DNA of 64,000 bases from Gluconacetobacter takamatsuzukensis (GTDB lineage Bacteria > Pseudomonadota > Alphaproteobacteria > Acetobacterales > Acetobacteraceae): the NCBI RefSeq assembly GCF_014174275.1, contig NZ_JABEQK010000001.1, forward strand, positions 372,001 through 436,000. The letters run 5' to 3'. A program made the position numbers and the translations under genes. Positions 19,111 to 59,033 of this stretch are shown here, in pieces. Position 1 is the stretch's first letter. Each line of letters opens with the position of its first letter. The notes beneath the pieces are model-generated. The model was not told the DNA's origin and searched no databases. It saw only the letters and a program-made list of their open reading frames with translations.

Positions 19111-19273
19111 GTTTATGCCCGGAAACGCGCGCTGGCGGCGATCCGGCGCGCGTTTACTGTGCTCCGATGCTCACGGCCCGTATGGCCGCTCCGCTTCGGT
19201 GCTCGGAAACGCACGACGGGCGCGGCCCCTTGGGCCGCTCTCGCTCGCCAGTCCGCGTTTCCGGGCACAAACT
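19111..19273 (+). repeat. Structured 3'-end repeat element, copy A
   Basis: Starts directly after the hslU TGA. The outer arms are AGTTTATGCCCGGAAACGCG at the left and its near-perfect reverse complement ending at 19273. Inside is the conserved core: CTGGCGGCGATCC, a CGGCC-CGTAT-GGCCG hairpin, a GTTTac/GGAAAC long-range pair, and a GCGGCCC-CTT-GGGCCGC hairpin, then CTCGCTCGCCAG closing with the CTGGCG. Element orientation is forward relative to hslU. The remaining bases to 19374 hold only the sufE leader. Confidence 0.85.
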
Positions 19274-27650: not shown

Positions 27651-27814
27651 CAGAGGGTGGTCGGAAATGTGGGCTGATGAGCGAGAGCGGCCCGCAGGGC
27701 CGCGCCCGGCGTGTGTTTCCGAGCACCGAAGCGGAGCGGCCTGACGGGCCGTGAGCGCCGAAGGGGAGGAAACGCGTGCGGATCGCCATTAGCGGCGCTT
27801 CCACGGGTCACGCG
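27651..27814 (-). repeat. Structured repeat element, copy B (tandem, incomplete)
   Basis: Shares with copy C the 3'-side arm CAGAGGGTGGTCGGAAATG and the whole core (GAGCGAGAG, GCGGCCC-GCA-GGGCCGC hairpin, GTGTGTTTCC, CGGCC-TGACG-GGCCG hairpin), but its own 5'-side arm (read on the minus strand) is not complementary. It therefore looks like a 164-base tandem duplication of copy C that has since degenerated. Confidence 0.8.
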
Positions 27815-27981
27815 CAGAGGGTGGTCGGAAATGTGGGCTGGTGAGCGAGAGCGGCCCGCAGGGCCGCGCCCGGCGTGTGTTTCCGAGCACCGGAGCGGAG
27901 CGGCCTTATGGGCCGTGAGCACCGAAGCGCAGGGAACGCGCGCCGGATCGCCACCAGCGTGCATTTACGACCACCCTCTCA
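27815..27981 (-). repeat. Structured 3'-end repeat element, copy C
   Basis: On the minus strand it begins at the TGA (27981-27979) of the small secreted protein gene. The 5' arm AGAGGGTGGTCGTAAATG pairs with AGAGGGTGGTCGGAAATG (read on the plus strand at 27816-27833). The core contains both hairpins, with loop CATAA in CGGCC/GGCCG and GCGGCCC-TGC-GGGCCGC. Together with copy B it fills the 357-base gap after cbpM. Confidence 0.85.
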
Positions 27982-44029: not shown

Positions 44030-44167
44030 CGTCAGTTCCCGGAACAAAACCGTCAGGAGGCCGAGGCTGGGAGCATCCGGGTGACGAACCGGTTCCGTGG
44101 CCCCGCGTCCCGACGCGGAAATCCGACCGTGGAAACCGTGACGCCCGCGGAGTCTGGCGGTGTCAGG

Positions 44168-44224
44168 CCTCTTTAGCGCGTCTGTTTAACCTCGTCGCAA
44201 GCCGGCCGATCCAAATCACGAGGG
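44168..44224 (-). promoter_or_regulatory. SAM-II riboswitch upstream of metZ
   Basis: On the minus strand the leader contains the SAM-II hallmarks in order: CGTGATTTGG, CGGCTTGC, TTAAAC and GCTAAAGAGG. The P1 stem is CCTCGT (44223-44218) paired with ACGAGG (44195-44190). SAM binding should fold the pseudoknot and lower metZ expression. A candidate promoter lies just upstream: TTGACG at 44283-44288, 18 bases, AATAAC at 44259-44264. The remaining ~140 bases to the metZ ATG hold a CCGCGTC-GG-GACGCGG hairpin without a T-run. Confidence 0.88.
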
Positions 44225-44312
44225 CCCGTGGGCCCCCGTGGGGGCTGCGGACGACAGGGTTATTGCGGATCGCAGGGCTGCTCGTCAACCATGTGGGGTG
44301 GCGGAGGATGGA

Positions 44313-44353: not shown

Positions 44354-44427
44354 GCGGGTGTAGTTCAATGGTAGAACGGCAGCTTCCCAAGCTGCATACG
44401 AGGGTTCGATTCCCTTCACCCGCTCCA
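44354..44427 (+). tRNA. tRNA-Gly (anticodon CCC)
   Basis: Cloverleaf with acceptor GCGGGTG/CACCCGC, D-arm TAGTTCAATGGTAGAA, anticodon stem GCAGC/GCTGC with loop TTCCCAA (anticodon CCC, reading GGG codons), T-arm GAGGGTTCGATTCCCTTC and an encoded CCA end at 44425-44427. A structured repeat element begins directly after, its arm overlapping the CCA. Confidence 0.96.
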
Positions 44428-44593
44428 GCCCTGTTCGTAAATGCGTGCTGGTGGCGATCCGGCGCGCGTTTTCTGCGCTTCGGTGCTCACGGCCCATAAG
44501 GCCGCTCCGCTCCGATGCTCGGAAACACACGACGGGCGCGGCCCGTGCCGGGCCGCTCTCGCTCACCAGCCCGCATTTCCAAACAGGGCTTGG
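44428..44593 (+). repeat. Structured 3'-end repeat element, copy D
   Basis: Follows the tRNA CCA without a gap. The arms are CCAGCCCTGTTCGTAAATG (from 44425) and, read as reverse complement at the far end, CCAAGCCCTGTTTGGAAATG. The core has CTGGTGGCGATCC, CGGCC-CATAA-GGCCG, and an extended GCGGCCCG-TGC-CGGGCCGC hairpin. Orientation is forward relative to the tRNA. Confidence 0.85.
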
Positions 44594-48282: not shown

Positions 48283-49044
48283 TTATCGCGGCCAGCTGGC
48301 CGCGATCCGTTCCGCCAGGTCGTCCAGGATCGATTGGGTGAGGTCCGCGACCTGGTCGTCGGTCGTGGCGGGACCCTGGCGGGTGAGGGTGGCGCGCTGG
48401 TGGATCAGCGGCTGGTGTTCGTCGCGGGGGACGATCGACCAGTCGGCGGCCAGCGACGCGGTGCCGTCATGCGCGATGTCCAGCCGGCTGATATTCACCG
48501 CCAGGCGCCAGGTCGCGGGCAGGACCTGCGGCTGGTCGGTCACGAACAGGTCGGTGCGGCTCTGGGCGAGGCGCGCGGTGATGAGGTCGGTGGCGCCGAG
48601 CGACAGGCGGCTGGCCCAGCGGCCGGTGGCGCTGCGTTCGATCCGGTTGCCGTCGCGGGCGATCAGGTCCTGGCCATCGAGATAGTCGGGCAAGGTGATG
48701 CGGGCGACCGTGACGGTCGGCGTGGTGGAGGTGACGCTGCCGACCGGCACCGCACCGGTCGCGATGGCCGGCGCGCCCAGCGTGTAGAACCGTACCGGCG
48801 GCGAAGCGCAGGCGGCGAGCATGGCCGGAAGGGCCAGCGCGGTCAGCCAAGCCGGAACGCGGCGGCTTTGGAATGAAAAAGACTGTTCTGCCAGCCGGTC
48901 TGCTGAGCGAGAGTGCCGCGCAGCGGCACGCCCGGCGTGGGTGCGCGAGCACCGAAGCGGAGCGGCCTTGATGGCCGTGAGCACCGGAGCGCAGCGGACG
49001 CGCGTCGGATCGCCGGCAGGCCGGCTGGCAGGACAGTCTTTCAT
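48283..49044 (-). CDS. PqiC/ABC-auxiliary lipoprotein; N-terminus made by a repeat element
   Basis: The conserved part begins at RRVPAWLTALALPAMLAACASPPVRFYTLGAP, a lipoprotein signal with lipobox LAAC, and continues as an ABC-type transport auxiliary lipoprotein (VARITLPDYLDGQDLIARDGNRIERSATGRWASRL, DDQVADLTQSILDDLAERI). It belongs to the Mla/MCE lipid transport operon as outer-membrane partner. The only usual in-frame start codons upstream are the ATG overlapping the mlaD stop (ATGA) and a GTG, both inside repeat element copy E. A 70-residue element-derived extension would then precede the lipobox, which should hamper export. The true start is uncertain. Confidence 0.7.
   Translation of the reverse strand: MKDCPASRPAGDPTRVRCAPVLTAIKAAPLRCSRTHAGRAAARHSRSADRLAEQSFSFQSRRVPAWLTALALPAMLAACASPPVRFYTLGAPAIATGAVPVGSVTSTTPTVTVARITLPDYLDGQDLIARDGNRIERSATGRWASRLSLGATDLITARLAQSRTDLFVTDQPQVLPATWRLAVNISRLDIAHDGTASLAADWSIVPRDEHQPLIHQRATLTRQGPATTDDQVADLTQSILDDLAERIAASWPR
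48872..49042 (-). repeat. Structured 3'-end repeat element, copy E
   Basis: On the minus strand it starts at the mlaD stop. Arms ATGAAAGACTGTCCTGCC and, at the far end read on the plus strand, ATGAAAAAGACTGTTCTGCC, continue into GGCCTGC/GGTCTGC. Both core hairpins show compensatory changes relative to other copies: GTGCCGC-TGC-GCGGCAC type instead of GCGGCCC/GGGCCGC, and GTCCGC/GCGCAC instead of GTTTCC/GGAAAC. The far arm ends in AGTCTTTTTC, the only copy with a T-run. It is open throughout in the frame of the downstream lipoprotein gene. Confidence 0.82.
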
Positions 49045-50015
49045 GGGCGGCGTCCCATCAGGAGGAGTTGCGGATTGCGTTCCACGTCGCTGGCGAAGCC
49101 GCGCAGGGCGGCGGCGGCGGCGGACAGGTCGCGCAGGGTGGAGTCGATGTTCGCGCGGTCGGCCGAGCGGGGCGAGGTGATGTCGTGCAGGGCCGACAGG
49201 CTCTCGCGGGCCTGGATCACCGTGTCGTTGGCGTTGTGCAGCACTTCGTGCAGGTCGGCGCCGCGGGCGTCGAGCTGCTGGGTGCCGGTATTGGCCAGCC
49301 GGTCGATGGCCGTCAGCGTCGTGTCCAGCCGCTGTTCCAGGTTCTGGATGGCGTGGGTCGCGCTGTCGACGGCGATGCGCGAATGGTCGGAGGTCTGCTT
49401 GACGCTGTCGACCAGGGGCGGCAGGTCCTGGTCCAGCCGTTCGGCCAGCTGGCGGATGCTGGCCAGGGCGGCCTGGGCGTTGTCGGCCAGTTCCTTCAGG
49501 GGAAGCTGGGTCAGGGTTTCCTGCACCTTCTGGATCGCGGACTGGCGGGTCGGGATTTCGACCTGCTTGCCGGTCACGATGTCGGGGTGGAGCACGGCGG
49601 GGGCGGAGGGGTCGAAATCGAGGTCGATCTCGGACTGGCCGGTGACGAAGCTCTGCATGTTCAGCGACGCGCGCAGCCCGTGGTCGATCATGCTTTGCAG
49701 GCTCAGGCTGCGGTGGGTGCCCGAGGTGCCGGCGATGGAGATGTTGTTGGGCTGGAGTGCGACCGCCACCGGAATATAGGCGGCGTGGGTGCGGGCATCA
49801 TAGGTGATCGAGATGGAATCGACCGCACCGACCCTGACCCCCCGGAACGTGACCGGGGCGCCGATGGTCAGGCCCGATGTCGAGCCCTGGAACACCACGG
49901 TGGCCTGCCGCGTGGGCGAGAAAATGTTGAAATTGCCGAAGAAGACCAGGGCCCCCATGCCCAGGGCCACCCCTCCGACGACAAAGGCGCCAACGATCGT
50001 TTCTCGGTTTGCCAT
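49041..50015 (-). CDS. mlaD: MlaD/MCE-domain lipid-binding protein
   Basis: 324 residues. One N-terminal membrane helix (IVGAFVVGGVALGMGALVFFG), then the MCE domain (ATVVFQGSTSGLTIGAPVTFRGVRVGAVDSISITYD), and a long C-terminal helical region (about 160-310) typical of MCE proteins that form hexameric rings or tunnels. It binds and passes phospholipids between inner-membrane MlaFE and the periplasm. Three bases after mlaF, followed by the lipoprotein gene. Confidence 0.92.
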   Translation of the reverse strand: MANRETIVGAFVVGGVALGMGALVFFGNFNIFSPTRQATVVFQGSTSGLTIGAPVTFRGVRVGAVDSISITYDARTHAAYIPVAVALQPNNISIAGTSGTHRSLSLQSMIDHGLRASLNMQSFVTGQSEIDLDFDPSAPAVLHPDIVTGKQVEIPTRQSAIQKVQETLTQLPLKELADNAQAALASIRQLAERLDQDLPPLVDSVKQTSDHSRIAVDSATHAIQNLEQRLDTTLTAIDRLANTGTQQLDARGADLHEVLHNANDTVIQARESLSALHDITSPRSADRANIDSTLRDLSAAAAALRGFASDVERNPQLLLMGRRP

Positions 50016-58867: not shown

Positions 58868-59033
58868 GAGAACCTGACCGTCAATGTGGACTGGTGAGCG
58901 AGAGCGGCCCGTCTGGTCGCCTCCGCCGTGGGTTTCCGAGCATCGGAGCGGAGCGGCCTTATGGGCCGTGAGCACCGAAGCGCAGGAAACGCGCGTCGGA
59001 TCGCCGCCAGACCGCATTGACGGTCAGGTTCTC
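58868..59033 (-). repeat. Structured 3'-end repeat element, copy F
   Basis: On the minus strand it starts at the TGA of the RDD gene (59034-59032). The arm GAGAACCTGACCGTCAATG is perfectly repeated in inverted form at 58868-58886. The core has CTGGCGGCGATCC, GTTTCC/GGAAAC and CGGCC-CATAA-GGCCG intact, while the GCGGCC hairpin is weakened in this copy. It lies between the RDD gene and thiM. Confidence 0.85.

Follow-up and report, generated by a model that had tools for sequence, protein, structure and literature searches.

A repeat element within a lipoprotein reading frame

The window analyzed here, a 64,000-nt stretch of the Gluconacetobacter takamatsuzukensis genome, carries on its minus strand a gene encoding an MlaD-like MCE protein and, directly behind it, a gene encoding a PqiC-like ABC-transport auxiliary lipoprotein (Table 1). 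The lipoprotein matches the Pfam model with 94.5 bits (cutoff, 26), and its match to the NCBIfam pqiC model lies only below the cutoff of that model. No relative of the PqiC-like lipoprotein was found in the viral contigs searched. Between the ATG of the lipoprotein gene and its signal sequence there is a palindromic repeat element, whose reading frame is open and continuous with that of the gene. The lipobox cysteine is codon 79 (LAAC, followed by ASPP) and, judging from this motif, is expected to be residue 1 of the mature lipoprotein. With the element, 64 residues precede the 15-residue hydrophobic and lipobox stretch, compared with 13 to 18 in element-free relatives; for a lipoprotein signal sequence, a leader of some 60 residues is unusually long. 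The extension is basic, with 12 to 14 lysines and arginines against 2 to 5 aspartates and glutamates ahead of the hydrophobic stretch, a composition compatible with the N-region of a signal sequence. Three in-frame ATG, GTG, or TTG codons stand ahead of Cys79: ATG1, GTG21 (within the element), and ATG75, which is unusable as a start because it is only 4 residues from the lipobox cysteine.

Table 1. Coordinates of the mla junction, of the further repeat copies in the window, and of the mini-element found in G. diazotrophicus
Feature	Position	Strand	Remarks
mlaD-like MCE protein gene	49041..50015	-	324 aa; Pfam PF02470; PqiB/Mce-like
PqiC-like ABC-transport auxiliary lipoprotein gene	48283..49044	-	253 aa including element-encoded N-terminus; PF03886 at residues 87-248
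Repeat element, 164-nt palindrome	48878..49041	-	55 codons (2-56) in the lipoprotein frame
Palindrome arms at mla	49015-49041 + 48878-48904	-	Pair over 27 positions
Lipoprotein ATG start	49042..49044	-	Overlaps the mlaD stop as ATGA; same place in carriers and non-carriers
mlaD TGA stop	49041..49043	-	Last base is the first base of the palindrome
Hydrophobic stretch and lipobox AWLTALALPAMLAAC	48808..48852	-	Codons 65-79; from sequence
Element copy (core)	27835..27952	-	Stop codon ends 26 nt before core, like the mla copy
Degenerate second element copy	27671..27787	-	Follows the 27835-27952 copy in tandem; no separate ORF end
Element copy (core)	58888..59009	-	TGA of a 264-codon ORF ends 26 nt before core
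Element copy (core)	19133..19255	+	TGA of a 501-codon ORF ends 26 nt before core
Element copy (core)	44453..44573	+	Close downstream of tRNA gene 44354-44424, not behind a protein gene; no upstream ORF end found
Mini-element (L103/L172)	G004:C1:944709-944750		20 extra N-terminal residues

We compared the mlaD-lipoprotein gene pair in 14 genomes of the genus; one genome, G013, gives two rows (G013a and G013b). The in-frame element was found at the identical point in eight rows, namely, our genome, G. aggeris, G013a, G. tumulicola, G. dulcium, G. sacchari, G. liquefaciens, and G. asukensis. A direct ATGA junction was found in six (G. diazotrophicus, G005, G. azotocaptans, G. tumulisoli, G. johannae, and G013b), and Nguyenibacter has a direct ATGA junction too. 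The mlaD tree separates the carriers from the other genomes by a branch with a support of 100/100. Because relatives outside the clade of G. liquefaciens show the direct mlaD-ATGA-lipoprotein junction, one insertion in the ancestor of that clade is the simplest account. Recombination within the element seems to have shaped the copy of G013a (L011), which combines a left arm of the G. dulcium/G. sacchari type with a remainder identical to that of G. aggeris. Besides this intact copy, G013 has another mla operon (L023), which is Nguyenibacter-like and lacks the element.

These results bear on the original prediction, which had been made from the DNA of the window. It placed a repeat at 48872-49044; a repeat does lie there, but that span adds the ATG and 6 nt past the right arm to the exact palindrome. 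Its statement that the repeat is open in frame with the lipoprotein gene holds for codons 2 to 56, which are element DNA. It further stated that the element supplies both the start codon and the N-terminus, and that the only usual starts are the ATG at the mlaD stop and a GTG, both within the element. The N-terminal codons are indeed those of the element, and ATG1 and GTG21 are present; the ATG, however, is the ancestral mlaD/lipoprotein ATG and not element DNA, and ATG75 had been overlooked. An added peptide of up to about 70 residues had been expected, which is right as to a long extension and too high as to its length. The proposed insertion, to be judged at the same locus in relatives, was borne out by the direct junction in the element-free genomes.

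A repeat family placed behind stop codons

The predicted repeat belongs to a real family. Our genome has at least 46 element matches, a lower bound because part of the candidates was scored, and 6 copies are in the window. The copies consist of a conserved core of about 118 nt and two flanking outer arms, and nearly all of those in our genome fold into a single long hairpin (-83 to -137 kcal/mol). The outer arms diverge strongly between copies and keep their complementarity (L039-L078), which could reflect compensatory change or template-switch correction of the palindrome. Element matches were found in 22/120 genomes and 20/102 genera of the family sample. Rfam showed no RNA family at the mla element, and a literature search found no description of the element in Gluconacetobacter or Acetobacteraceae. 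A SAM_alpha riboswitch (RF00521, 58.6 bits) is present elsewhere in the window, at 44152-44232 on the minus strand.

The position of most copies relative to genes follows a rule. An upstream ORF on the same strand, with coding composition, ends near the left arm in 36 of 45 copies in our genome. In 28 of these 36, the stop codon (TGA, TAG, or TAA) ends 24 to 26 nt before the core, that is, 0 to 2 nt from the first base of the palindrome, while the antisense version of the test gave 7/45. The mla copy fits this rule exactly (-26), and in several other copies the upstream gene ends at a stop provided by the arm (GCCTGA at -18 and GTAA at -12). Of the nine exceptions, several stand second in a tandem array. 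The rule also holds for most copies sampled from other Gluconacetobacter genomes. This genome-wide habit, absent from the original prediction, explains why the mla junction was hit. It could reflect insertion targeting or selection against other positions.

Relevant to this choice, at three of six control sites the full-length element was found only in our genome, right behind a stop, and the other genomes of the carrier clade have no full element there. At one of the three (L061), two relatives show what may be remnants. Terminal paired arms, together with the evidence of recent mobility at these three sites, are MITE-type features.

We also searched for the pattern ATGA followed by the start of the core. 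In G. diazotrophicus PA1 5 (G004) and the near-identical G005, a 60-nt mini-element lies in frame exactly after the ATGA of a gene for a cytochrome c lipoprotein (MRGCFKSPAAGDPTRVLKQPPRPRPAFVLAIAAVLLVAGC...; Pfam cytochrome c match), and the upstream partner at this junction is a long ORF. Nine other genomes have a plain ATGA junction there, with an ordinary signal sequence and no mini-element. The same outcome has arisen twice, independently, both times ahead of a lipoprotein signal sequence, and two cases are too few to speak of a preference. Most other ATGA matches were either unrelated sequence or out of frame with any clear gene. One in G. tumulisoli (L111) shares the frame of a GntR-like gene but was not counted, because this gene has an ATG of its own farther on, and no claim is made for three copies in our genome (L048, L053, and L075) whose frame enters the downstream gene, where later plausible starts were noted by eye.

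We propose tentatively, at somewhat less than even odds, that the family inserts by recognizing the 3' ends of reading frames through stop position and sense strand. ATGA-coupled operon junctions would then be predictable sites for N-terminal coding conversion, and proteins with cleavable signals would be permissive landing sites.

Origin and fate of the element-encoded extension

The reading that we favor, with a probability of roughly 80%, is that an after-stop mobile repeat became a trapped N-terminal passenger. A mobile hairpin repeat that inserts or survives right after stop codons, oriented like the upstream gene, inserted once behind the mlaD TGA, in the common ancestor of G. liquefaciens and its clade. 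As this TGA overlaps the lipoprotein ATG, the insertion point falls within codon 2 of the lipoprotein gene. The ribosome would then start at the ancestral ATG, or restart there after mlaD, and reading through the element would add about 55 mostly basic residues before the old signal sequence. Signal peptidase II cuts before the lipobox cysteine, and the element-encoded part is entirely N-terminal to that residue and should thus be removed together with the signal peptide. The mature lipoprotein would be unchanged and the insertion tolerable; the predicted absence of the element-encoded part from the mature protein would explain the tolerance. The original start region ahead of the signal sequence would later have decayed in most species, so that the element could no longer be lost or shifted in frame. 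On this view the element would be a neutral passenger, trapped in place, and not a new functional domain.

One alternative is that the extension has been domesticated. Its peptide might act, for instance, as an N-region in targeting or regulation, or its RNA hairpin might adjust how strongly the lipoprotein is expressed relative to mlaD. The copy is retained in all eight carriers, and the mla hairpin is well kept among these orthologues, with 92% of arm cells paired and 11 of the 27 arm pairs changed on both sides, beyond both shuffles and slid controls. Intergenic copies, however, keep paired arms as well, and arm pairing is a property of the family. The left arm of G013a mismatches its right arm, and the gene has been kept regardless. 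At the codon level there is no constraint beyond control: the pN/pS of the element is 0.67 in the real frame, an intergenic control read in that frame gives 0.54, and we dropped the idea of selection on the element-encoded peptide. The added peptide gives no sign of selection beyond the keeping of its frame. We regard domestication as unlikely.

A second alternative, which we rate as quite unlikely, is that the lipoprotein starts at a noncanonical or species-specific codon just past the element, which would then be purely intergenic. G. sacchari does have an ATG there (RRMPAWL), aligned with an in-frame ATG of G. diazotrophicus (NRRMARL), and G. dulcium and G. liquefaciens, which differ in the segment after the element, have a TTG just after it. 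These three carriers, with their possible downstream start, are one point against the trapped-passenger reading. The other five, however, have GTT or ACG at the position of the G. sacchari ATG and no ATG, GTG, or TTG between the element and the signal sequence, so that no alternative codon is conserved and the element-derived N-terminus is the only ordinary reading in 5/8 carriers. This suggests that the older start decayed after initiation had passed to the element-led one. All eight carriers keep the frame from ATG1. Over the eight carriers, the mature lipoprotein is intact and under purifying selection, with a pN/pS of 0.19, and therefore some start must be in use; ATG1 is the only start common to all carriers and is probably the site of initiation.

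The behavior of the frame was compared with that of other copies. Among the eight orthologues, with a mean divergence of 16%, there is no frame-shifting indel and no stop in the element; the sole indel near it is one of 9 nt at its right edge. We dropped the lack of stops as proof of translation, since only about 1.2 to 1.6 stops are expected under random substitution (P, ~0.2 to 0.3 for none), and since 23 of the 44 other copies in our genome are open in the same frame, which makes an open frame in one copy unremarkable. The real signal is the arrangement conserved in 8/8 carrier genomes. Intergenic control copies turn over: beyond the three that are full-length only in our genome, others are shortened or lost among genomes of the carrier clade. 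In the best-retained one, a comparison of six orthologues shows indels of 8 nt and 1 nt, and another (L049) shows, by eye, length differences that are not multiples of three. Frame retention relative to intergenic controls thus backs translation, more weakly than the start-codon evidence does.

That the insertion damaged the gene, leaving a degrading pseudogene or a failure of export, we consider very improbable: the long extension and the loss of the ancestral N-terminus would fit it, but the mature part is under the constraint given above and has no stops, a lipobox (LAAC or VAAC) is kept in all eight carriers, and G013, the one genome with a second operon free of the element, also keeps its element copy intact. 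The prediction that the element either impairs lipoprotein export or forces a rare start codon is not supported, in view of this constraint, the intact lipobox and hydrophobic stretch, and the lack of an alternative start common to the carriers.

Relation to other palindromic repeats

Coding palindromes are hard to explain, as insertion into a protein usually should do harm. The Rickettsia palindromic elements (RPE) are repeats of 105 to 146 bp with an open frame which are found in frame in protein genes and are tolerated (PMC2229807). The likeness to them that was part of the original prediction is upheld in principle: our element is a multicopy hairpin palindrome in frame in a conserved protein gene, and in-frame inserts with insert-free relatives are found at mla (eight carriers) and in the G. 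diazotrophicus case. The likeness is one of mode of action. Unlike RPE, the Gluconacetobacter insertion is at the N-terminal edge, its place is set by the stop rule, and it precedes a cleavable signal, so that the cell would be expected to discard its product.

The YPAL/RU-2 hairpin of Yersinia, about 167 to 168 bp long, is in frame with some ORFs, in one of which it forms part of a signal peptide (PMC2759123). The Gluconacetobacter element, from another bacterial class, precedes the signal sequence and does not form it. Target-site duplications of 3 to 26 bp are a mark of YPAL/RU-2. For our element, a comparison of empty and filled sites by eye at several loci showed no consistent duplication. 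YPAL reportedly also lies closely downstream of stop codons. The two would thus share a hairpin of similar length, ORF fusions, and sense orientation behind stops, and the distance of 0 to 2 nt in Gluconacetobacter appears tighter than the spacing reported for YPAL.

Flanking ORFs often take their TAG stop from the terminus of a GTAG-tagged REP (PMC3733652), as the arm supplies the upstream TGA or TAA in some Gluconacetobacter copies. REPs are 20 to 40 bp long with a GTAG or CGTC tag, while our element has 164 nt and no such terminal tag was noted; CGTC repeats are missing in Acetobacteraceae (PMC3733652). The element appears to work like RPE, YPAL/RU-2, and GTAG REPs, beside which we set it by their descriptions, with no sequence relation implied.

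The mla junction offers a possible answer, in two halves, to the problem of coding palindromes. The after-stop rule would give coding insertions only where a stop and a start overlap, and the host protein would be permissive, with the new part ahead of the signal and presumably removed with it. This idea can be tested on two independent cases, one of them conserved in eight genomes. For annotation, start sites at such elements are easily miscalled, and the insertion habit of the family, specific to the 3' ends of genes, deserves its own study. Short derivatives with most of the core deleted (L146, L194, L195, and L103) recur at several loci, and the arms of two of them (L146 and L103) still pair by eye.
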